Of a stretch of 64,000 nucleotides of DNA, positions 28,688-64,000 are shown piece after piece (position 1 is the first letter of the stretch; every line of letters begins with the position of its first letter). This DNA is from Nitrospira japonica (lineage in GTDB: Bacteria > Nitrospirota > Nitrospiria > Nitrospirales > Nitrospiraceae). Under the pieces are notes generated by a model. It did not search any database and was not told where the DNA came from. It saw only the letters and a program-made list of their open reading frames with translations. The stretch is taken from the NCBI RefSeq assembly GCF_900169565.1, contig NZ_LT828648.1:4004501-4068500 (forward strand). Direction: 5' to 3'. A program made the translations under genes and the position numbers.

Positions 28688-28688
28688 G

Positions 28689-36410: not shown

Positions 36411-38408
36411 TCATGCGCGCATGGCAAACGTTCTCATCCAGATTCCAAAACTGATAAGGCGCCAAATAACGAACGAAAACGACCGCCTTCCCGTAACAAT
36501 CTTTTCGAACAAGCCGGCCGCATCCGATCCCAGGATGCCGGATGAAAGATCTATCGCGTTGTGCACGGCACGGCGGAACAGATCGGGATCTTCTTCCCTC
36601 ATCCACACTTCTTCCGGCGTCGCAAATCCGAGCTTGTCCCGGCGCGTGCGCACGCGTTCGGGCAGCGTCGCGCGCAGTCCCTCTCGCATCACTCGTTTCG
36701 TCATCCCGTTTCCGATCTTGTATTCATCGGGCAAACCCAGCACGAACTCGACCAGACGGTAGTCGAGAAAGGGAACGCGGGCTTCGATGGAGTGCGCCAT
36801 GGAATTGCGATCCTCCCAATGAAGGAGCATCGGCAGCGACGTCGCCCCGACCTGTGCCCGGGACATCGCTTGAACCGTGCGCGCTTTGGCAGCTCCCGCC
36901 GCGGCAAACGGATCCAGAGGAACCGCTCCGAGCCGTTTCATATCCAACCACGATGCATCCCTTCCCGACTTCCCTGCCCATAACCGCAACCGCTGACGGG
37001 CAGCCTCCGGCAGCACGTTGTCCATCACCTGTTTGGCACCCCAGGATATCGGATACCCGTGAATCGTGTTGAGTTCGCGTAATTCCGTTAATAAGGTCGA
37101 CCACCGCATTTCCCTCAAGAGCCGGCCCAGATAGGGAGAAAAATATGCATGATAGCCCGCGAGTTGCTCATCGGCTCCCTGCCCGTCCAGCATCACTTTC
37201 ACACGGTGTTCCGCGGCCAGTCCAAACACATGCCATTGAGCATAAATGCTGGTCGAACCGAACGGCTCGTCCTGCGTCCACGTCAAACGGTCCGCCGTCT
37301 GAAACAGGTCGACGAGACGGGGATACACAGAATGTCCCTCAGCTCCCGTGTGTCGGACCACTTCGTCGATATACAGTCGTTCGTCGAATCGATCGATTGT
37401 TGAACAGGAAGAAAAGGTTTTCTGCCGTACAGCCGCTCCGTTGCCGCGGAGAAGTTCGTTCATCACGCAGACAATCGCCGAAGAATCGAGACCGCCGGAC
37501 AAACAGGAGCCGACCGGAACATCGGATCGGAGACGGAGCCGAACGGCATCCGTAAAAAGTGAAAGAAACCGCTCCGCCGCGGTCTTCATGTCGCCGTCGA
37601 ACGGCTGCGGACTCAAGTGGTACCACCGTTTGATCGGCGGGCCGGCCAGTAGTTCCTCTATAGAGCAATGGAGCGATTCACCGCCCCGCAGTTGACGGAC
37701 TCTCTCGAACAGGGTCTCATCCGTATGGTCCATCAACCCCCAGTTGAGAAAGTCGTACGCGCGCTGGCCGTTGACGGAAGGCGACCACTCCGGCAACACG
37801 GTGAACTGCTTGATCTCCGAGGCCATCGCCATCAGTCCCTGCCCCGAACACCACAGATACAGCGGCTTGACGCCGAATCGGTCGCGCGCGGCAAAGACCC
37901 GTCCGGCTTCTCGATCCACGAGCACGAACGCGAACATGCCGTTAAAGCGCTGCAGGCACTCCTCTCCCCATGCCCGGTAGGAAGCAAGGATGACCTCGGT
38001 GTCGGTATGCGAGACGAAGGAATGTCCCAGAGATTCCAGTTCGGCGCGAAGCTCGAGGTAGTTGTAGATCTCCCCGTTGTGAATGACCCAGAAGCGGCCG
38101 TCGGCCGTGCACATCGGTTGATGACCGGCTGCACTCACGTCGAGAATCGACAGCCGCCGGTGGCCCAGCGCCGCGATCACGTCGCGGTGAAATCCGTTCT
38201 GCCGGACCGGGGCGTAGGAGACCGCCATCTCGTATACCGCCTGCGGAGTATCGATCCCTCCCGAAGCAGCCGCCTTCATCGTGCCGGCCGAGAACGCCAC
38301 GACCCCTTCATCATCCGGACCACGATGGCGGACGGCGTCGGTCATGGCACGAACCAGCGGTTCCAACGGAGCGGGGGTTGAGGCAAAGATCGCTGCGATG
38401 CCGCACAT
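36411..38408 (-). CDS. asnB: Asparagine synthetase-type amidotransferase, paralogue 2
   Basis: The 665-residue protein starts MCGIAAIF with Cys2 as glutaminase nucleophile. It differs from the other copies by an insertion of about 30 residues after the RHRGPDDEG motif (roughly residues 40-75). The PP-motif reads CLSGGLDSSAIV (near residue 305) and is followed by MLDGQGADEQLAGY instead of the usual LSGDGGDELF. These features place it in a different subfamily from paralogues 1, 3 and 4. The role is probably amidation of a sugar acid or attached amino acid; the substrate is unknown. The next gene downstream begins a codon's length away. Confidence 0.91.
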   Translation of the reverse strand: MCGIAAIFASTPAPLEPLVRAMTDAVRHRGPDDEGVVAFSAGTMKAAASGGIDTPQAVYEMAVSYAPVRQNGFHRDVIAALGHRRLSILDVSAAGHQPMCTADGRFWVIHNGEIYNYLELRAELESLGHSFVSHTDTEVILASYRAWGEECLQRFNGMFAFVLVDREAGRVFAARDRFGVKPLYLWCSGQGLMAMASEIKQFTVLPEWSPSVNGQRAYDFLNWGLMDHTDETLFERVRQLRGGESLHCSIEELLAGPPIKRWYHLSPQPFDGDMKTAAERFLSLFTDAVRLRLRSDVPVGSCLSGGLDSSAIVCVMNELLRGNGAAVRQKTFSSCSTIDRFDERLYIDEVVRHTGAEGHSVYPRLVDLFQTADRLTWTQDEPFGSTSIYAQWHVFGLAAEHRVKVMLDGQGADEQLAGYHAYFSPYLGRLLREMRWSTLLTELRELNTIHGYPISWGAKQVMDNVLPEAARQRLRLWAGKSGRDASWLDMKRLGAVPLDPFAAAGAAKARTVQAMSRAQVGATSLPMLLHWEDRNSMAHSIEARVPFLDYRLVEFVLGLPDEYKIGNGMTKRVMREGLRATLPERVRTRRDKLGFATPEEVWMREEDPDLFRRAVHNAIDLSSGILGSDAAGLFEKIVTGRRSFSFVIWRLISFGIWMRTFAMRA

Positions 38409-41397: not shown

Positions 41398-42852
41398 CTA
41401 CTTCTCCACCGGCGTGCCGGTCGGCGGGACAATGGCGGCGAGCGTCTCACGGAACAAACCTCCCCGCCACATCAAGAATATGGGAATGATCATGACAAGT
41501 ACCTTGACAAGGACTGTCCGAAGCCCGGTATCGAAGCCGTTCAGCGTCCAAGCGACGGGAACCGACAACAGCCCGACGACAAAGACCGACAGTAACTGAG
41601 TCCAGTTTAACGGCAATGGATGTACCCGCTGCGTCCAGTATAGATAGCTTCCGCTGAGAGCGAAGTAGGTCACGGTCGTGGCCAGCGCTGCACCGAGCGC
41701 GCCCAATCTAGGGATCAATACAAGGTTCAGTGCGACGTTGAGCGCTGCTCCGACCCAAGCCGAAACAGCAAAGATGCGGGTTCGTTTTTCCAACGAGATG
41801 CCCACGGCGGTAATTTGCGTGGTTCCGAGAAATACCACTCCCAACACCGCGACGATCAGAATGTTCGCCGCCGGCCAATATCGTTCCGGCGTCGTGAGGA
41901 TCAGAAGTTCCTTGGCGAACAACGACAGGGCGCATCCAGCGAGGGTGAGGAGCAAGAACCATATGGAGAACACTTCGCTGTAGACTTTCCGATAGTCAGG
42001 CCGGTCTGCCCGAACCTTCATCGCCCATGGACTCCACGCTTGTCCGAAGGCCGTATTCAGGAACATGACGACCGCGGCGAATTTAAACGCGATCCCATAC
42101 AGTCCTACCTCATCCATGTTGCTGAACTGAGCAATCATCCAGCGATCGATCGAGCCCAACGCCCAATAGGCTAGTCCGCTGAAAATAAATGGGTAGCCGA
42201 ACTGAAACAGTGTCTGCGCGACGCCGGAATTGAAGTCGAATTCCAGATCCTTGCCGATCAACCAAAGGCCTACCGGAACCGCCAGCAAGCCGGCGACGGC
42301 CGTTCCCATGAAGATTCCCGTCACGCCGAAACCGAATGCCAGGATGAGGACCAGTCCCGCTCCCACGCCCACCGCGTTCTTGAGAAAGGCGACGCAGGCA
42401 TAGCGCCATGGAACGAACTGGAGCCGGAGCACGTCAAGAACGTACTGCAGCGCGACCGAAGGGACGAGGCCCGCGAGTGCAAACAGGATAAGCGGCCAGG
42501 ACATCCCGTACTGCTCTTCAATCGGCTGTCTGACCGCATAGAGGCAGATTGCTGCCGCCGCGACGACAGCGATTGTCGAACCTGACTGGAACAGCAAGCC
42601 GGTGGACACAAGCCGCCGTTTGCCCTCCTCCGTCAGGTCGGAATCCCAATAGTATCGTTGCACAGCGTTGTTCAGCCCCAGACTGCAGCAGATCGTCAGC
42701 AGCATCGAAAACGCCGTCACCAATTCAATCACTCCGAAGTCGCGCACCGAGAACGTATAGGCATAAATCGGGAACACGGAGAAGGCCAGTACTTTGAACA
42801 ACAGATCGCTGGCTCCGTAGAGAACGACGTCCTTACCGAGGCTCGTAAGCAT
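41398..42852 (-). CDS. wzx: Wzx-type polysaccharide flippase (MOP superfamily)
   Basis: The start is ATG 42852 (MLTSLGKDVVLYGASDLLFKVLAF); the TTG two codons earlier is less likely. The 484-residue protein has about 14 evenly spaced hydrophobic segments and the N-terminal pattern (VLYGASDLLFKVLAFSVFPIYAYTFSVRDFGVIELV) of the oligosaccharide flippase family. It should move the undecaprenyl-linked repeat unit across the inner membrane. Its presence points to Wzx-dependent rather than ABC-transporter export. It overlaps the end of the upstream glycosyltransferase gene by about 20 bases. Confidence 0.92.
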   Translation of the reverse strand: MLTSLGKDVVLYGASDLLFKVLAFSVFPIYAYTFSVRDFGVIELVTAFSMLLTICCSLGLNNAVQRYYWDSDLTEEGKRRLVSTGLLFQSGSTIAVVAAAAICLYAVRQPIEEQYGMSWPLILFALAGLVPSVALQYVLDVLRLQFVPWRYACVAFLKNAVGVGAGLVLILAFGFGVTGIFMGTAVAGLLAVPVGLWLIGKDLEFDFNSGVAQTLFQFGYPFIFSGLAYWALGSIDRWMIAQFSNMDEVGLYGIAFKFAAVVMFLNTAFGQAWSPWAMKVRADRPDYRKVYSEVFSIWFLLLTLAGCALSLFAKELLILTTPERYWPAANILIVAVLGVVFLGTTQITAVGISLEKRTRIFAVSAWVGAALNVALNLVLIPRLGALGAALATTVTYFALSGSYLYWTQRVHPLPLNWTQLLSVFVVGLLSVPVAWTLNGFDTGLRTVLVKVLVMIIPIFLMWRGGLFRETLAAIVPPTGTPVEK

Positions 42853-44161
42853 TTTCAAAATATCTGCGGGGTATGCGGTTGTCGACCAGAGGATGTTTGA
42901 CCATGGCTCTTTCGCGGCAGTAGGCCGATTTGAGGGGATGATACAGGTTCATTAGGTCTACGGCTTCACCTGCAAACTTCTTATAGATGGCGCCGAAGAG
43001 ATATTGTGCCGTCGCATAAGAGTGATACTTCTCCACGTAGGCCCTGCCGGCCGTCCCTAATTCCGATCGTAGCGACCGGTTCGTGACAAGCACGCGCAAG
43101 ACCTCAGCGATGGTGGCGGGAGTCGCGGAAACGACAGGGCACTCATCGAGAAATGAGTAGCGCCGGAAGATCTCCGTCGCGGCGCGGTCATCGAGGTTGG
43201 CGACGACCGGCAACCCGCTGGCCATGCCTTCGATCGCGTTGAGCCCGTATCCCGGCAGGATCAACTGATCGGCGAGAATATCCACCTCCTGCATGAGCTG
43301 CCTGACCTGATCGTTGGAAATGCGCTCCGCGAGCACCAGTTCTACCGGCAACCCCTCCGTCTTCAATCGATCGACCGCCGTGAGAATGTATTCCGTCCCC
43401 TTGACCCCACGATGATTTGGCGCATGCAGAATACGAACCGGCCTATCGGATGTTGCCTCCGATGTCCGCCGCGTCTGACTCCAGTTATTGGTATCAATAC
43501 ACACCATGTTGCCGCTGGGAACATCCCACCGTCCGACACCGTCCATGGTAAACCCCATGACGATGGCATCAGCATGCTCGGTCCAGTAGCGAACCGACCT
43601 TTCCACCCGTGCTTCCCGTCTTGCCGCATCAGGATAGGAGAGCAACAAGGCGTGGCGGACCATGGGATCGATCACTTTCGAATACCGGTAGATATCCGCG
43701 CCGTATGGAAGAACCACCGTCCGAACACCGGCCAGACGATAGAGACGGGCTTCCCACTTCCATAAGAATACGGTCCTGCCCAGAGGCCCTCCGGAGAAAG
43801 GAATGTGTACGACTTTGGCGTGTCGAACGATGTACAAATGCGCGACGTAGGCCCCCAGCGCTTCCGCCAGACTTCCGAGCCACCGGATCTTGAATAAATC
43901 CTCGTAATAGATATCGTAATCGCTGCGCTGGTTGATCGACGAGTAATAGGTCGACATCAGCGTACGGGAGTCCCAACCGGCCCGACGCATGGCTTCCGAC
44001 CAATATTTGTTGTTGATGATCGGGATAGGCCCCCAGATGAGGAGCCGCTGGCCTCCCCGTAATGTAAGGCTTGCGAGCACAAGCCACGGGAGACAAGCCA
44101 GATCGAAGAGGAGAGCCACGCCCCTGGCCAACCCTCGCAACACAGGCGACACATCCGTCAT
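42833..44161 (-). CDS. Glycosyltransferase family 4-like protein with a membrane-proximal N-terminus
   Basis: The 442-residue protein has a hydrophobic N-terminal stretch (about residues 10-45, ...ALLFDLACLPWLVLASLTLRGG) that may bind the membrane, an acceptor domain with VVLPYGADIYRYSKV, and a donor domain with ILHAPNHRGVKGTEYILTA and GYGLNAIEGMASGLPVVANLDD. It shares the HRGVKGT region with the 38411 protein, suggesting related donors. It overlaps the upstream glycosidase-like gene by ATGA and the flippase downstream, so all three are probably one transcript. The sequence is visibly less GC-rich than the sugar-precursor genes. Confidence 0.82.
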   Translation of the reverse strand: MTDVSPVLRGLARGVALLFDLACLPWLVLASLTLRGGQRLLIWGPIPIINNKYWSEAMRRAGWDSRTLMSTYYSSINQRSDYDIYYEDLFKIRWLGSLAEALGAYVAHLYIVRHAKVVHIPFSGGPLGRTVFLWKWEARLYRLAGVRTVVLPYGADIYRYSKVIDPMVRHALLLSYPDAARREARVERSVRYWTEHADAIVMGFTMDGVGRWDVPSGNMVCIDTNNWSQTRRTSEATSDRPVRILHAPNHRGVKGTEYILTAVDRLKTEGLPVELVLAERISNDQVRQLMQEVDILADQLILPGYGLNAIEGMASGLPVVANLDDRAATEIFRRYSFLDECPVVSATPATIAEVLRVLVTNRSLRSELGTAGRAYVEKYHSYATAQYLFGAIYKKFAGEAVDLMNLYHPLKSAYCRERAMVKHPLVDNRIPRRYFENAYEPR

Positions 44162-46515: not shown

Positions 46516-47598
46516 CTACGTCGCAGCAGTCAGACTGTGAAAGGGGACGACAAAGAAATCCGGATAGGCGGAAAGGATCTCCGACTTCGATCGTTTCAGA
46601 ATATCCGGCCCGTTTAACTGCGTGAAATACCGGTAGGATGCATCCTTTGCACCCCATTTTCGCTTGAAGCGCAGGACGCCGTCCTGGCTGAGCCATGTCC
46701 CGCCCCAGTTCCAGCGAAGAAATCCCTGCCTGGCGGCATCGACCATGGCCTTTGCCAAAATGAGCGCCATCGGCTGACTCTCGCGGTTTTTCGAAACGGT
46801 AACAGGGGTGAAATATTCCACCGTCCTGTTGAAATAAAATAGCAAGAGACCCGAAATCAATATCCCGTTCTGCTCGGCCACATAAATACGATAGTCGGTC
46901 CCAGCATTGAAATGGGTGCGCACCTTTGAGAAAAACTCATGACTCTTCGCCTTGCCTGAGATTTCCGCCATGTTTTCGGTGTGCACGGTCTCGATGAAGG
47001 AGAGTTGATCGTTGTCGATTCGCACCGTCACGCCGCTCGATTCAGCCTTGCGTATATTACGTCTAGCCGAGCCGTCTATGGCGCCGAGCAGGGCCGACTC
47101 CGGATCATGTCCCTCCCACAACAGCGACGTCCACTGTGCAATCCGTTCGTCGATCACCGTGTGCGCGGGGGTGACCGAAGGGGCATGAAACGGATGACAG
47201 ATCCACGTTGCCGCCGCGACATCGGGTTTCGAGACCAGTTCGTCATACTTCGCCGTGAGTGCGAATGCGACGTCTTGGTCGGTCGCCAAGACCCCGCCGT
47301 TGCTGCCATAGTAAGGAAGCGAGTTGATGACTTTTCCGTATGGTCCGTCACGCCACATGATCGGCAGTACGCCCGAAATCAACTCGTCCTTCCAAGCAAT
47401 CCAATACTGGGCTTCGCACCGCAGCAAGGCCTGGAGAAACACCTTGTACCGCAGTGAAGAGTAGAGCAGAGACTCCTCGACACCGAGCAGAAAGGTTTCA
47501 TAGGCGGCCTCGTCATCCGGCCCTAGAACCGAAAGTCTGGGCGTCAATGCAGTGTCTCGCGTTCCCGCGCCCCGCCGTCGAGAAAGATCCGGCACCAT
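46516..47598 (-). CDS. FemAB-like GNAT acyltransferase
   Basis: The 360-residue protein has the double-GNAT layout of FemAB/peptidyl-transferase relatives: an N-terminal half with YWIAWKDELISGVLPIMW and INSLPYYGSNGGV, and a C-terminal half with ARRNIRKAESSGVTVRI, YRIYVAEQNGILISGLLLFYF and FLRWNWGGTWLSQDGVLRFKRKWGA. Family members transfer amino acids or acyl groups to cell-wall or glycan acceptors. The ATG at 47598 overlaps asnB paralogue 3 by 55 bases; a TTG at 47547 that overlaps its stop (TTGA) is an alternative start. The pairing with an amidotransferase suggests an aminoacylated glycan. Confidence 0.78.
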   Translation of the reverse strand: MVPDLSRRRGAGTRDTALTPRLSVLGPDDEAAYETFLLGVEESLLYSSLRYKVFLQALLRCEAQYWIAWKDELISGVLPIMWRDGPYGKVINSLPYYGSNGGVLATDQDVAFALTAKYDELVSKPDVAAATWICHPFHAPSVTPAHTVIDERIAQWTSLLWEGHDPESALLGAIDGSARRNIRKAESSGVTVRIDNDQLSFIETVHTENMAEISGKAKSHEFFSKVRTHFNAGTDYRIYVAEQNGILISGLLLFYFNRTVEYFTPVTVSKNRESQPMALILAKAMVDAARQGFLRWNWGGTWLSQDGVLRFKRKWGAKDASYRYFTQLNGPDILKRSKSEILSAYPDFFVVPFHSLTAAT

Positions 47599-49448
47599 TC
47601 CTCAAAATAGACGAGCGACCAGATCAGGAGCCGGCGGTTCTGTCGTCCGTCCAAATGTTCGTCGACCAACCGCTGTATAGCCTCTCGATCGAAAAATTCA
47701 TAGATCCGCGGAGACCCCTTAAATAGGAGCTTGCGAACATAGTCGATACTTTCCCCTCGAAACCAGCTGGCATCGGGCGCCGAGAATCCCTGCTTTTCAG
47801 CCTGAGTGATGGAATCGGGTATATAGTTCTGCATCGCCTTCCGGAGGAGCAGCTTCCCGTCCCTGGTTCGCTCAAAGTACTTGCGCGTCTTGGCGCCGGG
47901 TTCGTTTTCATTGAGCTTCACGACTTCGTCCAGATTGCCGAGCTTGAATCGGACGGGCAGACGCTGGGCAAAATCAGCCAGATCGTTATCCAGAAAGGGC
48001 ACTCTTGTTTCGAGACTATGGGCCATGGATAGCTTGTCTTCTACGACCAACAATCCGTGCAGGAACGTCCGGGCTTCGAAATAGAGCGAATGACTGACGT
48101 AGTCTTCCGGCCTCGTAAACGTCTCTGCATGTTTCTGAAAGACATCGCGGAAAATGTCCCGTGTCCAGACCTTTGACACGTCGTTCCAGACGGGCTTGAA
48201 TACCTGCTGAATCGCCTTGTTGGGGATGAGTCGTTGCCAGAAAAGATAGTATTTATCGATGTAGTGTTCGAAATCATCGTTGACGACCGCTCGGTAATAC
48301 CGCCAAGGATATCCGCCGAACAATTCGTCTCCTCCGGCTCCGGACAGCACGACCTTTACAAATTTGCTGGCCAGTTTGGCGGCAAAAAAGTTCGGATAGC
48401 TCTGTCCCACCCTTGGTTCTTCCAGGTGATATACGAGCCGAGCCATGATGCGTTCCATGTCGCCGGCCTTGAGGACCATTTCATAATGTTCGGTCTTGAA
48501 TAGATAGGACATATGTTCGGCCCGGGAGCGTTCGTCGTAGCCAAGCTCGACGCCGGACACCGAACTGAGGTCGAATCCGGTTGTGAATGTCTTGATGTAG
48601 GGCAACTGCGACGCGGCGACTGCGGTGATGGATCCGGAATCCATTCCTCCGCTGAGATATGAACCGACATCCACGTCGCTGATCAGTTGGCGGCCGACGG
48701 CCTGCCGGAACAGACGGCTGAGTTCTTCGACATATTCCCTCTCATCGCCCGACGAGTCGGGTTCGACAAAGCGATAATCCCAGTATCGTGTGCTGGTCAG
48801 ATCACCGTGCCCGGGACGGATGGTCGCGTAGGTTCCGGCGGGCAGCAGCTTGACGCCCCGAAAGAGCGTTCTGTCTGTGAAGAAATTCTGAAAGGTGAAG
48901 TATTCGAGCAGCGCCTCGCGATCGAGACCGGTTTCGTACGCCGGATGTGCAAGGATCGCTTTGATCTCCGAACCAAAGAGCAACGTGTTCCCGACCGCCG
49001 CATAGTACATGGGCTTGATGCCATACCGGTCTCGGGCCAAGACCAGAGCCTGTTCCTTTTCGTCCCACAGGGCAAAGGCAAACATCCCGTTGAGCCGCTC
49101 GAGCGCCTTGACTCCCCATTCGGCGAGGGCATAGAGCAGTACTTCCGAGTCGGTTTTTGACCGGAACCGGTAGCGAAGACTCTCTAACTCCGCTCGAATC
49201 TCTTGGAAATTGTAAATCTCCCCGTTGTAGGTGAGAACATATCGCCCATCCGGCGTCATCATGGGTTGATGGCCGGCAACGGACAGATCGATGATGGCCA
49301 AGCGTCGATGACCCAACGCCACATTGTTTCGTACCCACTGCCCTTCCCCGTCCGGTCCGCGGTGGGCAATGGCGTCGGTCATGCGCTTCAGCAACACCGG
49401 CGATGCCGGGGCGCCGTCGAGATGGACTATGCCTGCGATACCGCACAT
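47544..49448 (-). CDS. asnB: Asparagine synthetase-type amidotransferase, paralogue 3
   Basis: The 634-residue protein starts MCGIAGIVHLDG with the glutaminase Cys2 and contains AHRGPDGEG, TYNGEIYN and KTDSEVLLYA. The synthetase PP-motif reads YLSGGMDSGS near residue 262, so Met and Gly replace the Val and Ser of paralogues 1 and 4, and the second motif is VLSGAGGDELFGGY. The C-terminal part includes RTRDGKLLLRKAM and SAPDASWFRGESI. It is adjacent to the FemAB-like and NeuD-like genes, which favours modification of a glycan substituent. It probably shares a transcript with the aminotransferase upstream. Confidence 0.92.
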   Translation of the reverse strand: MCGIAGIVHLDGAPASPVLLKRMTDAIAHRGPDGEGQWVRNNVALGHRRLAIIDLSVAGHQPMMTPDGRYVLTYNGEIYNFQEIRAELESLRYRFRSKTDSEVLLYALAEWGVKALERLNGMFAFALWDEKEQALVLARDRYGIKPMYYAAVGNTLLFGSEIKAILAHPAYETGLDREALLEYFTFQNFFTDRTLFRGVKLLPAGTYATIRPGHGDLTSTRYWDYRFVEPDSSGDEREYVEELSRLFRQAVGRQLISDVDVGSYLSGGMDSGSITAVAASQLPYIKTFTTGFDLSSVSGVELGYDERSRAEHMSYLFKTEHYEMVLKAGDMERIMARLVYHLEEPRVGQSYPNFFAAKLASKFVKVVLSGAGGDELFGGYPWRYYRAVVNDDFEHYIDKYYLFWQRLIPNKAIQQVFKPVWNDVSKVWTRDIFRDVFQKHAETFTRPEDYVSHSLYFEARTFLHGLLVVEDKLSMAHSLETRVPFLDNDLADFAQRLPVRFKLGNLDEVVKLNENEPGAKTRKYFERTRDGKLLLRKAMQNYIPDSITQAEKQGFSAPDASWFRGESIDYVRKLLFKGSPRIYEFFDREAIQRLVDEHLDGRQNRRLLIWSLVYFEEWCRIFLDGGARERETLH

Positions 49449-54511: not shown

Positions 54512-56368
54512 CTAGACCGCCGACAGTGCCCGATCTCGACTCTTGCGAAGCCATAATTCCAGGATGAGGAGAGGCCACACCCGATAGATGGAAAAACAGC
54601 CGGGAAACCGCTGCCGTTCAACCAATCGGCGCAGGGCCGCCCGATCCGTATGCCGGCTGAGCTGTCCCGACGATGAGAGGATAAGATCGCCCGCCAGGCT
54701 CAGCATTTCGTCCCGGGACCAGGCGCTCGCGGGCAGGCCGAATCCCATTTTCTTCCTCATGACCCATTGTTCGGGTATATAGCGTGCGGCCAGCCGCTTC
54801 AGAATGTGCTTGGTATCTTGCGGGGCGCGCCAGCAATCGGCGGCAGACAGGGACTGAGCGAACTGCGCCACTTGGCGATCGAGCAACGGGCAACGCACCT
54901 CCAGCGATACCTGCATGCTCATCCGATCGACTTTTCCCAAGACCGCACCGGGCAGATAGGTCGCCACGTCGAGGTTGCGCATCCGATGGATCAAGGGCCG
55001 GCCCGAGTCATTCAGCTGGTCCCGCCAGGCTTGAATCTGTTGCCACAGCAGGGGCGAGAGTCCGCCAAGCAGATCCGCCACCTCCTCTGGTTGGAACATC
55101 AGCCACCGGGGCGATAGATACGCATCGGCCGGCCTGCTCCAGCGGCGCGCGCGGACGCTCCACCGAAGGCGGCCGAGCCAGTCCGCAGCGTCCAGCAACG
55201 TGTCGCGGTATCGTCCGTACCCGCCGAACATTTCGTCACCTCCGTCCCCGGACACGGCGACCGTGACGAATTGCCTCGTGTAGCGGCACAGGAGATAGGT
55301 CGGCAGACAGCTCGTGTCGCCGTTCGGCTCATCCAGCATGGACGCGACGTCGTCGATCAACGTGACCGCGTCGGGACTCACGAGCTGCTCGTGATGATCG
55401 GTCCCAAGATGCTCGGCAATTTGTCTGGCAAAGACGTGTTCCGTTTCCTCGGTGCCTTCGAAGCCGATGGAAAAGGTCTGAATCGGTCGGCCGAGTTCCC
55501 GGGTGATCATCGCAACGACCAAGGATGAATCGACGCCTCCGGACAGAAACGCTCCCAACGGCACATCGCTGATCAAGCGCTTGTCCACCGCCTCCAGAAT
55601 CAGACGCCGCAGAACCGCCTCGCGGTCTTCGGGCGCCCGCGGCAGCAAGGTCGGCGCTTCGCGCGCGTCGAACGTCGTATAGGGCTGCACAAGGGGTTCG
55701 GGAGTCGAACGGCCCGAAAAATCCGCGATCAGATACGAGCCAGGCGGCAGTTTCCTGACGTTCCGATAGATGGTCCAGGGAGCGGGGATGTATTGCAGGA
55801 GCAGATACAGGGCGAGCGCGTCCTCGTCGACGGTGTCATCGAATCCCGGCACGCAGCGCAATGCGTGCAGTTCCGACGCGAACGCGAACCACCCTGTTCC
55901 CGTTGCATAATACAGCGGCTTTTTTCCGAACGGATCCCGGGCCAGCAAGAGCCGGCGCTGCGCGCGGTGCCAGCAGCCGAAGGCGAACATCCCGTCCAAC
56001 TCGGCGAGCCGCCGCGGATCCAGCCCTTCGAACAGATGAGGCAGCACCTCCGTGTCGGTCCGGGAATGAAACCGGCGGCCCTGACGCTCGAGCGATGCTC
56101 GGATGGACTGATAGTTGTAGATTTCCCCATTGAACGTGACGACGACCGACCCCTCCGGATCGGACATCGGCTGCCGGCCTTCCTCGCTCAAATCCAGGAT
56201 CGAGAGCCGCCGGTGCGCCAGGGCAGAGGATCCATCCGTCTCGATCCACAGACCCGCGTCATCCGGCCCCCGGTGGACCATCGTATCCCGCATTGCGGTC
56301 ACGACCTCCCGCAGCCGATGCGGCCCGAATCCGGCTCCATGATCGATCAGACCGGCTATGCCGCACAT
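54512..56368 (-). CDS. asnB: Asparagine synthetase-type amidotransferase, paralogue 4
   Basis: ATG 56368 is required because the family needs Cys right after the initiator Met (MCGIAGLIDHGAGF); the open frame extends 97 codons further without similarity. The 618-residue protein has VHRGPDDAG, TFNGEIYNYQ, RTDTEVLPHL, the PP-motif FLSGGVDSSLVVA (near residue 275) and VAVSGDGGDEMFGGY. Its synthetase domain is closest in motif to paralogue 1. The C-terminus (GFGLPASAWSRDEM...) is typical. It may amidate a glycan carboxylate; free-asparagine synthesis is the alternative for at least one of the four copies. Confidence 0.92.
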   Translation of the reverse strand: MCGIAGLIDHGAGFGPHRLREVVTAMRDTMVHRGPDDAGLWIETDGSSALAHRRLSILDLSEEGRQPMSDPEGSVVVTFNGEIYNYQSIRASLERQGRRFHSRTDTEVLPHLFEGLDPRRLAELDGMFAFGCWHRAQRRLLLARDPFGKKPLYYATGTGWFAFASELHALRCVPGFDDTVDEDALALYLLLQYIPAPWTIYRNVRKLPPGSYLIADFSGRSTPEPLVQPYTTFDAREAPTLLPRAPEDREAVLRRLILEAVDKRLISDVPLGAFLSGGVDSSLVVAMITRELGRPIQTFSIGFEGTEETEHVFARQIAEHLGTDHHEQLVSPDAVTLIDDVASMLDEPNGDTSCLPTYLLCRYTRQFVTVAVSGDGGDEMFGGYGRYRDTLLDAADWLGRLRWSVRARRWSRPADAYLSPRWLMFQPEEVADLLGGLSPLLWQQIQAWRDQLNDSGRPLIHRMRNLDVATYLPGAVLGKVDRMSMQVSLEVRCPLLDRQVAQFAQSLSAADCWRAPQDTKHILKRLAARYIPEQWVMRKKMGFGLPASAWSRDEMLSLAGDLILSSSGQLSRHTDRAALRRLVERQRFPGCFSIYRVWPLLILELWLRKSRDRALSAV

Positions 56369-56414: not shown

Positions 56415-58232
56415 TCATGCGGACCGTCGCCGGCCAAAGAGCGCGCGCCAGCATCGTACGGCCAGCCGCAACAGTCTCGGATAGCGTCCCAGACGCAGGG
56501 CGACGCGGTACTCAAGACTCTGTTGGATTCCCGTGATGACTCTCCCCTGTTCGGCAATCCGCCGCTGGTACTCGGACGTCTCGTGCCGGTGCTGGACGAT
56601 CGTCTGCTCCTGTTCCTGCACCAACGCGCTCGACCGGGCCAGCATTCCTTCCAACACACGCACCGACGCCTCGCTTTGCCTGGTCAACTCCTGGCAGTCG
56701 CCGATCGTCTGTTCCTGTTCCAGCAAGCGGCGATCCTTCTCAGCGATCCACTGCTGCGACGCATGGGACTCTTTCAGCGCGTGCCGGAGCGCGATGTCGC
56801 TGAACAGGCCCTGGAGCGTCAGGTCCTCGACGCGCCGTTCCTTTTCCACCAGCACGGCTTCCACCGCCTCGGAAGACCAGGGCGGCGGCGAGGCGTCGCG
56901 ACGGACCAGATAGATGCTCGCCAATTCCGTCGAGCGTATGTCGTAGATCGGCGCGAAAGAATTCGCGAACCGGAGCGGTTCAAAACTCGGCCGGACGAGG
57001 TCGTGGAAACGGTAGCCGTGCTTCCAGAACTCGCGCACCCAGTTTTCGATCGGCAACGCGCCGTCTCTCGCGACGCCCGCTTCGCCCGGCGGGGTCGAAC
57101 AGAACAGGACCGTGTCACTGCAGGCGACGCAGGATGCGACCAGATCCCGGCAGGACGTTTCGGTGAGGTCGTGCTCGTCCGTGATGAAGAGGCACAGGTC
57201 CATGCGGAGATTCGGACGATAGACCGATCGGTAATCGAACGCCTCCCAACGAATCGGCCCGGTACCGGGGGAAACCGGCTGAGCTTCCGTGCCGACGCCG
57301 ATCAACTGCCCGGCTCCCCAGCGACCGAACTGTGCCAGCAACCCGCCGTGATCGGACCCGAGACAGAGGACGGAGGACGGCCTGCAGAGGTTATGGACGA
57401 CGGCGGCGAGTTGCTCCGTAAACCCCGGCTGTTCCAACAGGTCCGAACCGGCCTGGCGCACGGTCGCCGTGGGAGCGGATCGAGTCGAACGGTCGGATGC
57501 CTGTTCGATCACGCCGATCGCCTCGTAGAGGTCGGCATAGCGTCCGTGACGGAAGATCATGCCCGGCGTCTCGGCCAAGAACTGAAAGACGGCGCGCCGG
57601 ACGTTGGATCCCCAGCAGCCGATCACATCGTGCAGGACGATCCGGCCGCCGGGACGCAGATGAGGCCTCGCCAGACGCAGATCCTCGAGGACCGCGTGGC
57701 TGTAGTGCAGACCGTCGATGAAGATGAGGTCGAACGGTCCGTGCGACCGGCAGACATCGGGTCCGACGACCGGCGTCGTGTGGGTCGGATCGGTCTTCGT
57801 CGAGGCGAAGGTCGCCGGCGTGGAAAACCCCCCCGCGTGAAACACGATCTTATGCGACAATCCCAGCCGCTCGGCCGCCTGGCGCGCGAGCGTTTGAGAA
57901 CGCACCGTCAAATCGGCTTCCCGACTTTGCGTCCGCATCGCTTCAAGCTCGACCTGCAAGGGAAAGTTGGGATCCACGGTATGGATCACGGCGCCCTCCC
58001 CCGTCTTGAACGCCATGGCCAACGTCGATAACCCCACGAACGTGCCCACTTCGAGGAGACGCTGCGGAGCCGCCTCCTCGAGTTCCGTCAGGAGTTGCCG
58101 AAGGTCGCGTCCCGGGAGCGCCCAGTGGCTGACCAGTTCCCGCTGATACCCCAGGTCGGCATAGGTCGTCAGGAGCTGTTCATGCAGCTCGCCGAGTTCG
58201 ATCGGTGTCCGCAATTGGTTCATCAGGTCCAT
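56415..58232 (-). CDS. Two-domain methyltransferase with C-terminal coiled coil (module B-C)
   Basis: The start ATG 58232 (MDLMNQLRTPIELGELHEQ) is chosen because similarity to the neighbouring 859-residue protein begins here; ATG 58223 is also possible. The 605-residue protein has a SAM methyltransferase domain (LLEVGTFVGLS at 59-69, HTVDPNFPL, FDLIFIDGLHYSHAVLEDL), a second, degenerate methyltransferase-like domain (about 270-460: SSVLCLGSDHGGLL, then VLFCSTPPGEAGVARDG), a coiled coil of about 110 residues (VEAVLVEKERRVEDL...) and a basic amphipathic end (YRVALRLGRYPRLLRLA). It matches the last two thirds of the 58291 protein. Base composition is GC rich. Likely roles are methylation of a glycan or a scaffold at the membrane. 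Confidence 0.85.
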   Translation of the reverse strand: MDLMNQLRTPIELGELHEQLLTTYADLGYQRELVSHWALPGRDLRQLLTELEEAAPQRLLEVGTFVGLSTLAMAFKTGEGAVIHTVDPNFPLQVELEAMRTQSREADLTVRSQTLARQAAERLGLSHKIVFHAGGFSTPATFASTKTDPTHTTPVVGPDVCRSHGPFDLIFIDGLHYSHAVLEDLRLARPHLRPGGRIVLHDVIGCWGSNVRRAVFQFLAETPGMIFRHGRYADLYEAIGVIEQASDRSTRSAPTATVRQAGSDLLEQPGFTEQLAAVVHNLCRPSSVLCLGSDHGGLLAQFGRWGAGQLIGVGTEAQPVSPGTGPIRWEAFDYRSVYRPNLRMDLCLFITDEHDLTETSCRDLVASCVACSDTVLFCSTPPGEAGVARDGALPIENWVREFWKHGYRFHDLVRPSFEPLRFANSFAPIYDIRSTELASIYLVRRDASPPPWSSEAVEAVLVEKERRVEDLTLQGLFSDIALRHALKESHASQQWIAEKDRRLLEQEQTIGDCQELTRQSEASVRVLEGMLARSSALVQEQEQTIVQHRHETSEYQRRIAEQGRVITGIQQSLEYRVALRLGRYPRLLRLAVRCWRALFGRRRSA

Positions 58233-58290
58233 CGCAAGAGAGTTTGTTTCGAACGAACGTCCTTCGAATCGGTTCCAGCAAAAGTGATCG

Positions 58291-60870
58291 CTAACGACGG
58301 AACATGGCCTGCCAAAAACGTGTACCCAACCGCATGAGTCTTGGATATTTTCCAAGGCGCATGGCGATTCGGTATTCGGGGCTTTGCTCGATCCTTGCTA
58401 TCGCATGATCACGTTCTTCAATCTCTTTCGTTGAGTCGAGGATGATTTTATCCTTTTGTCGAAGGCACTCATCCTTCTCCCGAATGGTATCTTCATGCCG
58501 TTTAATACTGTCCTCGCACTGATGAATGAGAGCTTCTTGCTCGGTGACGATCCGATCGGCTTTCGCCCGAGCCTTGTCCTTGTCCACCAACGCAGCCTGA
58601 GACGACGTGAGATCCATTTGCATGTGCCGGAGAGCGACATCGCTCGACAGCCCTTGCAGGATGAGATCCTCGATACGCCGCTCTTTCTCAACGAGTATCG
58701 CCTCCACATCCTGCTGTACCGTTCGCAACCCTTCCGACTCGCGTCGAATGAGATACAGATTTGATAACTCTGACGAATGGACGGTGCACATGACATTCGC
58801 CAACCTCGGCAGTTCAAAATGGGGGCGGACTTGATCGTAGAAGCGATAGCCGTAGTTCCAAAATTCACGGACCCATTTTTCAATCGGAAATGATCTTTCC
58901 CCTGCAATACCCGCTTCACCGGGCGGGGTCGAGCCGAAGAGAATGATATCGCTGCACGCTACGCAAGAGGCGACAAGATGAGGGAGCGAGCACCGTGTTA
59001 AATCATGATCCACCAGACAGATGCAGAGATCGAATCGCTGTTTGGGCTTATATGGGGAACCAAAATCAAAGTGCTCAGTGATAGCCGGACCTTCCGTCAC
59101 CGGATACGCACCGTCCTGAACTTGCATCACTTGCCCAACTCCGCATGTGCTCAACTGCGGTAACAGGCGCCCCCGATCAACACCGAGATAGATCGCGCTC
59201 TTTGGAGTACAAAGCCTATAGACAACAGCAGCAAGCCTTTCCATGAACCCCGGATGTCTGAGAACGCTATTCTCGAGGGGCGGCACCTTCGTTTCAGCAA
59301 CCTGTGGCGAATGATCCGGGAGCTGTTCCAGTACGCCGATGGATTCATTAATATCGGCATACCGCGCATGCTGAAAGAAGAATTCCGGCGCCTCGACCAG
59401 GAATTGGAATACCGCTCGTCGCACATTACCTCCCCGGAGACCGATCGCGTCGTGAACCACAATACGACCCCGAGGGCTCAGGTATCGTGAAGCCAGGCGG
59501 AGGTCGCTCAAGACCGCATCGCCGGAGTGGAAGCCGTCGATACAAATAAGGTCGAACGGTCCGTGCTTTTGGCAGATTTCCACGCCAATCACGGGAACGC
59601 TCCCCTCATGTTTTGCGGGCGCAACCGTGACTGGAGCCGAAAATTCGCCGGCGTGAAAGACGATCTTATGTGCCAGCCCTACTTGCTGCGCAATCGCCGA
59701 AGCAAGTTCCTGACGGCGCATCGTCAGGTCGACGTCGCGGGCCGGGATATTCATGGCTTCCAATGCAACAGCCAGCGGCAAATTCGGATCGACTGTGTGA
59801 ATCACGGCTTCGTCATGAAGCTTGGCGGCCATCATCATGGTAGACAGGCCGACAAACGTTCCGATCTCAAGGACCCTCTCGGGCTGCTTTTCTTCAAGTA
59901 ACTCAGCAAGTTTCCGGCTATCACGCGCTGGAAGCGCCCAATTCGTAACGAGTTCGATCGGATACCCGTGATCGGCATAGGCGCTGAAGATCGAGTGGAG
60001 ATGTGAATCCTCTGAAAATGGCTTGAGTGTAAAGAATCGGCCGCCGAGGACTCGAAGAGCCTCCGGCGGCATCGTTTTGTATTTTGGTTGGAGTCGAGGC
60101 TGCAAGGCCGCAAGGTACTCCTCGTCAGCAAGCAAGTTGGGGTCAAATTGGACAATTCGAAAACCGGCCGCCCTAAACATGGCTTCAAATTCTGTCGAGC
60201 GAACCCCGTTGCCGAAAGTCCAAGCCATTCTCTTGAGCTGCAATTCCGAGTTCTGCGGGGAGATAGTCAGATATTCAAGAGGACGCTCAAAATTCCGATG
60301 ATCCCGAAAGTCAATCTGGTGAAATCCCAACCCACCAGGACGGGTGACACGGGCCAACTCCTGTATTGCGCGGGCCGGATCAGTGAGGTGCTCAAAGGTC
60401 GCGTTAGAATACGTGACGTCGACGGACGAGTCGGGCACCTCATGAATATTCTCCATGCCAACCTTCATGGCCGCTAAATTTGGGATTGCATGACTATCCT
60501 TCTTAACCACTTGATCCAAAGGGTCTGTCTCAATGGATGGAAAGATATCGGCGATTTCCTGGCGCAAATTCCTATAGTACAAGGGGTGAAAATCCGGGTC
60601 CCATTGGCATAGATAACGATCCACCAAGATGATGCTCGCACCGAATCCCATGAGAATGAGCGGAATCCCCAAGTCTTGCCCGGGACCGACCTCCAGCACC
60701 GTCTTGTTACGAAGGTAGCCGCTTTCGCCGGGGAGCCAGGAGATCAAATGTTTCGCGCTTTTGATCGCGAATTTGACGGCCTGGTCAACCTTTCTCTCCA
60801 AAGGATTCCCGTTTGACCATGAGGCCGCGTGTTCTTCGGCCGACGTGCGTGGACCATCCTCCAGTTGCAT
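58291..60870 (-). CDS. Three-domain methyltransferase fusion with C-terminal coiled coil (module A-B-C)
   Basis: The 859-residue protein starts at an ATG with a strong ribosome binding site (aaggagg). Module A (residues 1 to about 285, VLEVGPGQDLG at 58-68, SNATFEHL at 155-162, FHQIDFRDH) matches the separate 330-residue protein encoded next door. Module B (290-520, VLEIGTFVGLS at 333-343, FDLICIDGFHSG) is a complete SAM methyltransferase. Module C (540-710, SAIYLGVDRGRLL, LFGSTPPGEAG) looks like a methyltransferase fold with a worn SAM motif. A coiled coil spans about 720-828 and a basic end (YRIAMRLGKYPRLMRLG) closes it. By eye it is more A/T rich than its paralogue at 56415. I do not know a described protein with this order. 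Confidence 0.85.
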   Translation of the reverse strand: MQLEDGPRTSAEEHAASWSNGNPLERKVDQAVKFAIKSAKHLISWLPGESGYLRNKTVLEVGPGQDLGIPLILMGFGASIILVDRYLCQWDPDFHPLYYRNLRQEIADIFPSIETDPLDQVVKKDSHAIPNLAAMKVGMENIHEVPDSSVDVTYSNATFEHLTDPARAIQELARVTRPGGLGFHQIDFRDHRNFERPLEYLTISPQNSELQLKRMAWTFGNGVRSTEFEAMFRAAGFRIVQFDPNLLADEEYLAALQPRLQPKYKTMPPEALRVLGGRFFTLKPFSEDSHLHSIFSAYADHGYPIELVTNWALPARDSRKLAELLEEKQPERVLEIGTFVGLSTMMMAAKLHDEAVIHTVDPNLPLAVALEAMNIPARDVDLTMRRQELASAIAQQVGLAHKIVFHAGEFSAPVTVAPAKHEGSVPVIGVEICQKHGPFDLICIDGFHSGDAVLSDLRLASRYLSPRGRIVVHDAIGLRGGNVRRAVFQFLVEAPEFFFQHARYADINESIGVLEQLPDHSPQVAETKVPPLENSVLRHPGFMERLAAVVYRLCTPKSAIYLGVDRGRLLPQLSTCGVGQVMQVQDGAYPVTEGPAITEHFDFGSPYKPKQRFDLCICLVDHDLTRCSLPHLVASCVACSDIILFGSTPPGEAGIAGERSFPIEKWVREFWNYGYRFYDQVRPHFELPRLANVMCTVHSSELSNLYLIRRESEGLRTVQQDVEAILVEKERRIEDLILQGLSSDVALRHMQMDLTSSQAALVDKDKARAKADRIVTEQEALIHQCEDSIKRHEDTIREKDECLRQKDKIILDSTKEIEERDHAIARIEQSPEYRIAMRLGKYPRLMRLGTRFWQAMFRR

Positions 60871-60894
60871 TTGGAAGAATCCTCCTTGAACGAC

Positions 60895-61887
60895 CTATCT
60901 GACCCCGGCCGCTCTCCCGGATTGACGTTCTTCGCTGGTATGCGGTCTCACTTTCCCTGACCGAACAAACAATCGTCCCCCTACGACACGCAGATCATCA
61001 AGCGACGTAGACGCATACCGAGGCAACAAACTCGGACGGATTGCTTTCACGTATGTTTCATCTGCAAAACAGTTCGGTTCGAATCGGACCAATTCCAATC
61101 CCGCCTTCTCAAATTCCGCGATGAGGTCAGCCGGCCGGACCCGGTTTCCTCTTCCGCCATGACCATCGGCAAAACTGACTGCATACGTTGAATCTGGGAT
61201 GGTCAAGAACTCCAGAGGTCGCTCATTGCTGGAATGGTCACGGAAATCGACCTGGTGAATACCAATACCGCCCGGCCGGGTTATGCGTCCCAACTCACCG
61301 CACAGGCTCGGAACGTCGGTCACATGTTCCAGCGTGGCATTGGAGACGACGGCGTCAAAAAGGGAATCGTCAAAATCGATACCACCGGGCACGAAGTCTC
61401 CGCGCTTCATTTGGATGAATTCCGCTGGGTGGCAGCGTTCGGACGTGACGAGATCCAGAATGGTCATGTCCAAAGTTGGGTACTTTCTGTGCAACCCCTC
61501 TCTCAACAAAGAGTAGAAACGAGGATGATAGTCCGAATGCCAATCCACGAGATATTTATCGAAGACGGCTACTCTTGCTCCCGCCATGGCGCAAAACAAG
61601 ATCGCTCCGAGGTTGATTCCGGGGCCCAATTCCAAGACCGACAAAGAGGACAAATCAGGAATCGGTTTCACTGGTCGTCGCAGCTCTTTGGCCACATGTT
61701 TGGCATACTCGGCTCCGCAGGCCATGGAAAATTCCACTTCTTCGCGCAGCCGTTCATCACTGTGCTGGCAGTTGGCGTAGTACACATGAACACCCTGTGT
61801 ACCCTTCGTTCCCGCGAAACGGCGGTATATTCGCCGCAAGATCATCTGACAGTTGGCTTTTATGTCCAAGACCGTGGTCGTTATCAT
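60895..61887 (-). CDS. Class I SAM methyltransferase (module A alone)
   Basis: The 330-residue protein has motif I VLELGPGINLGAILF (residues 84-98), the acidic loop VAVFDKYLVDWHSDYHP, DAVVSNATLEHVTDVPSL and the block GIGIHQVDFRDHSSNERPLEFLTI in two runs, all aligning with module A of the 859-residue protein. The N-terminal 75 residues are helical and specific to this copy. It ends 24 bases before the fusion gene starts and overlaps the stop of the SGNH gene upstream by ATGA, so SGNH, A and A-B-C are probably one transcript. The substrate is unknown. Confidence 0.87.
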   Translation of the reverse strand: MITTTVLDIKANCQMILRRIYRRFAGTKGTQGVHVYYANCQHSDERLREEVEFSMACGAEYAKHVAKELRRPVKPIPDLSSLSVLELGPGINLGAILFCAMAGARVAVFDKYLVDWHSDYHPRFYSLLREGLHRKYPTLDMTILDLVTSERCHPAEFIQMKRGDFVPGGIDFDDSLFDAVVSNATLEHVTDVPSLCGELGRITRPGGIGIHQVDFRDHSSNERPLEFLTIPDSTYAVSFADGHGGRGNRVRPADLIAEFEKAGLELVRFEPNCFADETYVKAIRPSLLPRYASTSLDDLRVVGGRLFVRSGKVRPHTSEERQSGRAAGVR

Positions 61888-63728
61888 TGTCTTGCAAAGG
61901 GTTGCAGATCAGATCGGTTTCTCACACGCATCTCAATCATCCTGGCCCAGATGGCGTTCGCGACTTCATTGGGGTGCCCCTCCCATCTGCTGACGGTCAG
62001 GTTTTGCTCGCTAAACGAGCGGTAGTATGGTTCCGTGTCGATCACATCCATGCCGGCACGCGCGAGGTGGCGTTCCGCTATCTTGGTGATCTCGTAAGGG
62101 CGTGGATCCACCGCACGATACTTTTGATCCAGCACAATGGCGACCATCGGAGGGAGTCCCTGAGAGAGAACATAGGCATTCATGGCGGCCACGTCCTGAG
62201 CAAATCGTCCTTGATAATTTCCGAAGTCTTTCAAAATATCTTCGTAAAAGTCCGCGCGCAGTCCCACCCGTAGAAGAAATGCACTGTACCCGTCACTGGT
62301 AAGCCTGAGTATTCGGCTTCGTGTCATGAGATCCTGTTTGAGCCATTCCGGAAGGGGAATCGAGAAGTTATTCGTCATTGCGTACTGCCCAACGCCGGAG
62401 GGCAGAAAATCGTTATGGCAGACCCCATAAATCACGAGATCAGGCCGCAGGCGTGGTACAAACTCATAAATCCTCTTCTTGATGTCCTCACTTTGCATTC
62501 CATCCGATCCCAGATTGAGAAATTCTATGGCGTACTCCTTCTCCATGAGTCGTTGCAGCACTGCTGGGTACGTAAACCGTTCTTCGATCCCATCGCCATA
62601 CGTAAGACTGTCCCCTACGACCATGACACGGAATGTATTCGAACGCTTGGCGTCAAAATCAGACGTTCGCCGTATCCCATTCGCGTCGTACACGTGCAAA
62701 ATGCCATGCCACTGCGACGCTCGAACGGCGCCTTCCACCATTGCAGATCGCCTTTCCCATTCCTGGGGCATGGTCAGTAACGACTGCCTCCATGCGACCT
62801 GAGCGAGCACCTCCGATGGTACGGACACGGAGAATGAATTCAGTAGAGTACGAAGATGGGAATTTGCAGTCTCATGAGCCTGCCTCGGCACGTCGTGGCC
62901 GCGCTCGTCCGGGCTCATGCCCGCCCGCTCATGCCAGGCCAAGACCGCTTCAGTAACCGTCAGAGTCAATCCGATCGAGACGGCTGCAAGCGTCAGATCT
63001 CCGACTCGCACCCCTCGACTGCTTCTTTCTGGTATTTCCCGTGTCATCTCCCACAGTGCATACACCATCCATATCGCCGCCACTACAGCACTGCACAACA
63101 TGACCCACAACATGACGCCGTGAGCCTTCATCGTCCCCCATCCACACAATAGTGCGATGGATAGTATGAGCATGAAGCGAATGCCGTCGTGAACGAGCCG
63201 GCTGCCGTCCGTTTTCCTGCACCGGTCCCTGCAGAGACGTTTCACAAGCAAGAGCAGCCCAAACAGTCCGAGTACAAGAGAAAGAGATGGAGCGAGAAAA
63301 AGGCGCAAGCGGACGGCATACCGGTGCTCATTCGTTCGGGGGTCGCTGTCGTCAGAAGCGGAAAAGTACAGCTCGTGCCTCCAGTGAGAAAACTTGCCAT
63401 GCCCCTCCTTGCGGATGTTGGCGTGCATTTGGTGCGGAGGTCCGAGAGGCTTGCCGTCTTCGAACAACTCGGTGAACGCCTCATTCGGCGCCCCCACAGC
63501 ATCCGGGCGGGTTGCGAGTGGCCAGGACAATGCCACTGGCCATGCATATGCATGACCATCGTCGTGGCGAATATCTGTTTTCTCCAATTGCCACAACACA
63601 GGCACGCCGGCGAATGTTCCGAATCCCAGCAGCATCGCCAGAAGCAAGAGCAACGACAGAGACATTCGATTATTGTGGGTTACGACGCCGGGACGAGCTG
63701 TATGGATCATGGATAGCTTGCGTTCCAT
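61884..63728 (-). CDS. Multi-spanning membrane protein with SGNH hydrolase-like domain
   Basis: The 614-residue protein has a signal/anchor helix (about residues 22-42), an extracytoplasmic segment of about 100 residues, three or four further membrane helices (about 145-270) and a C-terminal SGNH domain (365-610) with RVMVVGDSLTYGDGIEE (nucleophile Ser), LGSDGMQSEDIKKR (block II Gly), VIYGVCHNDFLPS (block III Asn) and EGHPNEVANAIW (catalytic His). It is presumably an acyl esterase or acyltransferase acting on the exported glycan. Starts at 63728, 63710 or 63665 are all possible. It is translationally coupled to the methyltransferase at 60895. Confidence 0.8.
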   Translation of the reverse strand: MERKLSMIHTARPGVVTHNNRMSLSLLLLLAMLLGFGTFAGVPVLWQLEKTDIRHDDGHAYAWPVALSWPLATRPDAVGAPNEAFTELFEDGKPLGPPHQMHANIRKEGHGKFSHWRHELYFSASDDSDPRTNEHRYAVRLRLFLAPSLSLVLGLFGLLLLVKRLCRDRCRKTDGSRLVHDGIRFMLILSIALLCGWGTMKAHGVMLWVMLCSAVVAAIWMVYALWEMTREIPERSSRGVRVGDLTLAAVSIGLTLTVTEAVLAWHERAGMSPDERGHDVPRQAHETANSHLRTLLNSFSVSVPSEVLAQVAWRQSLLTMPQEWERRSAMVEGAVRASQWHGILHVYDANGIRRTSDFDAKRSNTFRVMVVGDSLTYGDGIEERFTYPAVLQRLMEKEYAIEFLNLGSDGMQSEDIKKRIYEFVPRLRPDLVIYGVCHNDFLPSGVGQYAMTNNFSIPLPEWLKQDLMTRSRILRLTSDGYSAFLLRVGLRADFYEDILKDFGNYQGRFAQDVAAMNAYVLSQGLPPMVAIVLDQKYRAVDPRPYEITKIAERHLARAGMDVIDTEPYYRSFSEQNLTVSRWEGHPNEVANAIWARMIEMRVRNRSDLQPFARQ

Positions 63729-63764
63729 AATATCGAGACCCGCTCACTCAACCGATTGATCTGC

Positions 63765-64000
63765 TCAGTGTGTCTTCTTGCCGAGCATGTGGTACGCGCA
63801 CTTGTGCGGCTCGTCCCGATTGAGCATCACGACGTCCGTAAATCCTTCCGCCAGATACCATTCCCGGATGAGGTCCTCTTCGATCGTCCAGTTGAAAAAG
63901 GTATTGAGCATGTCGAACAGATTGATCGCATTCTCCGGCCGGTCGGCGATCTCGTACGCATAGCGCAGCCGCTCTTCGATGCTCGCGAGCTGACGGTGAT
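63765..64000 (-). CDS. C-terminal part of a probable SAM-dependent methyltransferase, cut by the window edge
   Basis: On the minus strand the frame is open from the window edge to a TGA at 63765-63767, giving the last 77 residues of a protein. It contains NLFDMLNTFFNWTIEEDLI, then REWYLAEGFTDVVMLNRDE and ends HMLGKKTH. A helix with WY..EGF.D followed by a strand is the usual end of class I methyltransferases found in glycan clusters, but the catalytic part is missing, so the call is tentative. It lies 36 bases upstream of the SGNH gene and is probably in the same transcript. Confidence 0.55.
   Translation of the reverse strand, partial: HRQLASIEERLRYAYEIADRPENAINLFDMLNTFFNWTIEEDLIREWYLAEGFTDVVMLNRDEPHKCAYHMLGKKTH

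Follow-up and report, generated by a model that had tools for sequence, protein, structure and literature searches.

How does one surface-polysaccharide locus come to hold the same methyltransferase modules in both a split and a fused form, and what would such a set of enzymes do there? The locus lies in a 64,000-nucleotide stretch of the Nitrospira japonica genome (the window), where neighbouring genes encode a free-standing protein (A), a fused protein (ABC) and a shorter fused protein (BC) (Table 1). In the whole genome, which is one 4.08-Mb contig, the copies found are this trio plus one very weak methyltransferase match. The surrounding locus is large and includes glycosyltransferases (GTs), RmlB/RmlD, ManB/ManC, a Wzx-type flippase, Wzm/Wzt and a member of the O-antigen ligase family; its nucleotide-sugar genes are those for dTDP-rhamnose and GDP-mannose.

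Table 1. Coordinates of the trio, its modules and adjoining features; positions prefixed L019 refer to that stretch, all others to the window
Feature	Position	Strand	Description
A	60895-61887	minus	330 aa; free-standing class I SAM methyltransferase, Methyltransf_23/11; SAM motif LELGPGINLG intact
ABC	58291-60870	minus	859 aa fused protein; closing gene of variable block
BC	56415-58232	minus	605 aa from ATG; intact B (Methyltransf_24), degenerate C, helical tail
Module A of ABC	60016-60870	minus	Residues ~1-285; SAM motif LEVGPGQDLG intact
Module B of ABC	59311-60003	minus	Residues ~290-520; Methyltransf_24; EIGTFVG, VDPN, IDG and HD present
Module C of ABC	58735-59268	minus	Residues ~535-712; degenerate class I methyltransferase fold, GVDRG replacing GCGxG
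Helical tail of ABC	58294-58734	minus	Residues ~713-859; KERRIEDL motif, 84-residue predicted helix, short basic C-terminal helices
SGNH/GDSL hydrolase	61884-63728	minus	D domain at residues 46-146; same low-GC stretch as A and ABC
Asparagine-synthase-like amidotransferase	54512-56368	minus	Downstream of BC; putative native flank, 90% identical to same-genus copy
Putative exchanged block, window part	58243-64000		Runs ~3.6 kb past the window, ends inside wzt
D domain copies	61884-63728 (residues 46-146); L019:1222-2841; L019:5750-8233 (two copies); L019:7633-8937

Module composition of the trio

The three open reading frames were confirmed at these positions, all on the minus strand. The start of A overlaps the SGNH hydrolase gene through ATGA, and a Shine-Dalgarno-like AAGGAGG is found upstream of ABC. 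An alternative TTG start would extend BC to 58355 and into overlap with ABC; the BC homologue of a second genome of the same genus (G005) also begins with MDLMN.

By BLASTP, residues 79-308 of A match residues 53-281 of ABC with 40% identity (174 bits, E 5e-53), residues 20-601 of BC match residues 294-859 of ABC with 50% identity (554 bits, E 0.0), and between A and BC there is no match (E 1.1). The top score among 50 shuffled sequences was about 24 bits, which rules out chance similarity as the source of the module matches. The coexistence of split and fused forms of the same modules, put forward in the preliminary description, is thereby confirmed, as is the alignment of BC with the remainder of ABC, and the motifs quoted there are all present. 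Its claim that the A-type and B-type likenesses exceed those between random class I methyltransferases was put to a refutation test and survived it. A had been said to align with about residues 1-285 of ABC; the match is real, but it extends over only about 230 residues and leaves the N-termini unaligned. In a tree of A domains, module A of ABC clusters at 96/94 with the two free A proteins, separately from other A-like methyltransferases.

Pfam detects class I methyltransferase domains at the N-terminal side, in the A and B modules. Methyltransf_24 (Pfam: PF13578) scores 54.7 bits in ABC and 56.8 bits in BC against a cut-off of 26.3, with the SAM motif present. Judged by sequence, A and B are ordinary members of the Methyltransf_23/11 and Methyltransf_24 folds. 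Among curated families, none matched either the A-B-C order or the pseudo-methyltransferase C.

The C module and the helical tail

Two methyltransferase modules and a coiled coil had been described in these proteins. The modules are real, but there are three with a methyltransferase fold, C among them, degenerate here. The idea that C itself is the coiled coil was discarded: C is a methyltransferase fold, and the long helix comes after it. Pfam does not detect C in the window proteins, where the SAM motif (GxGxG) is lost and reads GSDHG in BC and GVDRG in ABC. We identify C as a methyltransferase from its relatives and its fold. In a distant relative of 621 aa (genome G378), the colinear C passes Pfam Methyltransf_23 at 46 bits (cut-off 27) and has GCGAG intact, and free-standing C relatives, which adjoin glycosyltransferases, retain GCGxG. 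The structure model of C (mean pLDDT 71) has 72 PDB matches in Foldseek at E<=0.001, of which the best 50 are methyltransferases or methyltransferase-like enzymes. In VIA, the same model reaches a Z of 14.1 to NodS (rmsd 3.1, 163 aligned) and of about 14 to the sugar N-methyltransferases TylM1 and CalS10. Thus C adds a third class I methyltransferase fold to the set; in the window proteins its SAM motif has been lost. A profile comparison gave a probability of 2% for A and C as mutual duplicates, and so no support for this idea.

In G378 the decay falls on the other module: B lacks E61, D87 and D173, replaced by A, G and H, respectively, and C is intact. In a further relative (genome G399), a GT4 domain stands in place of B, and C is degenerate there too. 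Between the two same-genus BC genes, dN/dS is 0.085 for B versus 0.27 for C. B is thus under stronger constraint than C, as we would expect if C is non-catalytic here. In the literature, a search for pseudo-methyltransferases among enzymes of polysaccharide synthesis or modification gave no result.

A motif resembling KE.RIEDL is common to all C-containing fused proteins, taking the form KERC or KEAR in distant relatives. For the tail of ABC, AF2 predicts one long helix (residues 745-828) followed by two short C-terminal helices that are strongly basic. The heptad periodicity of the long helix is not above that of shuffled sequences; the earlier coiled-coil assignment is therefore unsupported, and we do not use this label. 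The hydrophobic moment of the C-terminal helix is marginally above shuffled sequences, 4-8% of which reach it.

Comparison with other genomes

G005 carries the split A + BC pair only, with the two genes overlapping by 10 bp. The window genome and G005 are collinear, at about 82% nucleotide identity, on both sides of a 9.3-kb break at 58243-67586 (coordinates extended past the window). One end of this block lies within wzt, where the nucleotide breakpoint is at residue 246, between the ATPase and C-terminal domains; compared with G005, the NBD of Wzt is 94% identical and the C-terminal domain 42%. At the other end, homology to G005 resumes 10 bp before the BC start. The block includes A and ABC, and BC lies outside it. 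Beyond the window it holds two further methyltransferases and a second SGNH protein.

Protein identity to G005 is 57% for A, about 82% for BC and 90% for the amidotransferase downstream, most flanking genes being about 80-97% identical. BC and its G005 orthologue differ by a dN of 0.105 and a dS of 0.667, indicating purifying selection. The BC half of ABC is about 50% identical to each of the two BC proteins, which are 82% identical to one another. The GC content of SGNH-A-ABC is 0.52-0.57 versus 0.59-0.65 in the flanks, and both GC and GC3 differ sharply from those of BC. The rest of the block has ordinary GC in the window genome; the corresponding block of G005, 3.6 kb long, also has a low mean GC (0.575). 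The breakpoints and the contrasts in GC and identity to G005 place A and ABC in a probable exchanged block, with BC native. Cassette exchange beside a native BC, and not an ancestral three-gene system, best accounts for finding split and fused forms together.

At L017:8629-9003, G005 retains an internally deleted remnant of a methyltransferase that is intact just past the window end in N. japonica. Both lineages have therefore changed in the block, and some of its genes may have been lost in G005 rather than gained in the window genome.

Of 396 genomes of the phylum, the BC profile matched four at E<=1e-15, one of them over the B part only, and A-type matches occurred in 18 genomes; no second A-B-C fusion was seen among them. 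Pattern scans of 84,980 species genomes, which reach near-identical relatives only, returned nothing either for ABC or for the BC profile, and scans of this kind for the BC profile in viral contigs, BC in plasmids and ABC in phages, which reach close relatives only, also found nothing. At the reach of these searches, which for all phyla is limited to near-identical relatives, the A-B-C fusion appears in the window genome alone.

In G378 and G399 (L016 and L048), A proteins together with C-containing fusions stand beside fliD/fliS-like and flagellin-like genes, which suggests methylation of a flagellin glycan in these genomes. No Wzt was seen near them in the stretches examined. Cap-making therefore cannot be a general function, and glycan methylation in general is the safer claim. 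In another genome (G261), A occurs without BC beside a GT2-D protein.

In four genomes, an asparagine-synthase-like gene adjoins the trio or relatives of it. This gene was considered as a specific partner and rejected, since the G005 copy is no nearer to the G378 and G399 copies than to other paralogues (~35-36%). The locus holds four diverged asparagine-synthase-like amidotransferases (31850-33865, 36411-38408, 47544-49448 and 54512-56368), and the three compared are about 31-35% identical pairwise.

Many enzymes in these loci carry a domain of about 95 residues, here called D, with the pattern LxEDGxPLG..LHDDIR..G.GRYS.WG..LYFSTSDNSDPR.NGR.Y, which matches no Pfam or NCBIfam model at E<=1. 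The five copies found in the window genome all lie within about 8 kb adjoining the trio. Elsewhere D is fused to SGNH hydrolases, radical SAM proteins, methyltransferases, GT2 and GT4-C proteins, occurs in tandem within other large proteins, and is also found on a Solidesulfovibrio plasmid. In a further genome of the same genus (G002, L050:9930-11405), D stands in front of an A-like methyltransferase, and the GT4 gene adjoining it resembles the GT4 part of the G399 fusion.

Possible function and relation to known systems

ABC2_membrane (Wzm) and Wzt_C domains are found about 3-5 kb past the window end (Wzm/Wzt at L019:3545-5703). The Wzt C-terminal domain matches Aquifex Wzt chains (1.7e-10); in Aquifex this domain binds 3-O-methyl caps, and the cap sugars are rhamnose and mannose (PMC9445017). 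With genes at 41398-42858 and 27410-28750 and with Wzm/Wzt, one region contains polysaccharide export genes of both the flippase type and the ABC-transporter type. The export route of the glycan is uncertain, as a Wzx-type flippase and an O-antigen-ligase-family protein are also in the locus.

Published O-antigen terminators combine methyltransferase modules with a helical ruler and a membrane contact, in arrangements that vary by serotype (PMC11231755; PMC3482155). The preliminary description put the trio forward as its best candidate for something new, but related modular, helical-tailed methyltransferase proteins were already known from O-antigen assembly, so the kind of system is not wholly undescribed. 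WbdD of E. coli O8/O9a and K. pneumoniae O3/O5 likewise has an N-terminal methyltransferase, an extended helix and a C-terminal membrane-contact segment, and is encoded with a Wzm/Wzt bearing a cap-binding C-terminal domain. Unlike WbdD, the fused proteins here have no kinase, consisting of B and a decayed C or, with A, of three modules; they have no detectable sequence match to it, their heptads are unsupported and a second free copy is present. The heptad result weakens the parallel with a molecular ruler. In ORF6 of K. pneumoniae O7, which reads methyltransferase - kinase - coiled coil - GTs, and in other modular terminators, catalytic modules are also split and fused differently between serotypes (PMC11231755), whereas here the fused units are methyltransferase folds and the split and fused versions stand side by side in one locus. 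As in other ABC-transporter-dependent O antigens, the cap-reading Wzt domain is separate from the conserved ATPase domain (PMC9445017); the difference is that the putative exchanged block here also takes in A and the fused gene ABC, up to the start of a native BC.

We propose that the trio consists of SAM-dependent methyltransferases belonging to the surface-polysaccharide locus, probably with a glycan substrate; the SAM motif is intact in A, in the A module of ABC and in B of both fused proteins. C would be a decayed methyltransferase that now serves without catalysis, as a scaffold or a partner domain; the helical tail, which is basic, would tether the proteins at the membrane or at the sugar polymerase. 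A cassette comprising the Wzt C-terminal domain - methyltransferase - SGNH - methyltransferase - SGNH - A - ABC would have been exchanged by recombination between the ATPase-coding part of wzt and the beginning of native BC. Its methyltransferases would most likely place specific methyl marks on the glycan, plausibly including a terminal cap read by the co-exchanged Wzt domain, and native BC would provide shared or redundant methylation. Cap-making is plausible because of the homology of Wzt_C to the Aquifex cap-binding domain and because of the published terminators. We regard this composite reading, with the cap as a possible part of it, as evenly poised between holding and failing. The idea of a modular methyltransferase system on the surface glycan keeps its modules and its locus, but its parts list has changed, and the coexistence of forms is now read as cassette exchange; A and B may, as supposed there, methylate different positions.

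Tentatively, A and B may instead methylate non-terminal sugars of the repeat or a flagellin-type glycan, with the tail as mere membrane or scaffold contact and the co-exchange of Wzt reflecting linkage within a serotype block. This possibility deserves serious consideration, as relatives occur in flagellin loci, where no export-linked cap is expected, several further methyltransferases lie in the same block, and A occurs without BC in G261; a breakpoint exactly between the Wzt domains, and not at a gene border, fits it poorly. Possible as well, but more doubtful, is a WbdD-like terminator, in which ABC and/or BC would methyl-cap the chain, the tail would measure its length and recruit the polymerase, and the cap would license export by Wzt. 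A Wzt with a C-terminal domain of the cap-binding type changes together with the methyltransferase block, the succession of catalytic domains, long helix and basic C-terminal helix is the published WbdD layout (PMC11231755; PMC3482155), and the nucleotide-sugar genes present correspond to the Aquifex cap sugars (PMC9445017). However, ABC matched no PDB chain by sequence (E<=0.01), not even WbdD, WbdD was absent among the matches for the A and BC profiles, there is no kinase domain and coiled-coil character is not supported; homologous cassettes also occur in flagellin loci, with no Wzt seen nearby.

The origin of ABC could also be local, by an old duplication and fusion of the A-BC pair on the spot, with ABC later lost in the sister species and with no import. 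The 10-bp overlap of A and BC in G005 would be a natural starting point for such a fusion, and the methyltransferase remnant there agrees with loss; we nevertheless find this unlikely, given the low identity of A between the species compared with most flanking genes, the GC and GC3 contrast between SGNH-A-ABC and BC, and the equal distance of the BC half of ABC from two BC proteins that are far closer to each other. Class I and Methyltransf_24 folds do not determine the substrate, and a non-glycan target such as a protein or lipid carrier is conceivable. We consider this very improbable, since the trio lies in a glycan locus, distant relatives also occur in glycan or flagellin gene sets and the best fold matches of C include sugar methyltransferases.

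The methyltransferase trio is real and more than a plain duplication, because its exchange is linked to Wzt and because B and C have decayed reciprocally; its general kind is already known. A bolder view, which we hold to be decidedly unlikely as a whole, is a plug-in glycan-cap system in which B and C alternate as enzyme and pseudo-enzyme, A, glycosyltransferases and D are recombined around them, and the set is exchanged with its cap-reader, both changing together. In their alternating decay, B and C would offer a bacterial example of a role swap between enzyme and pseudo-enzyme within a fused pair. If the cassette reading is true, a single recombination would alter both the sugar-marking enzymes and the domain with which the exporter checks their mark. 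Writer and reader could in this direct way stay matched through a change of the bacterial coat.
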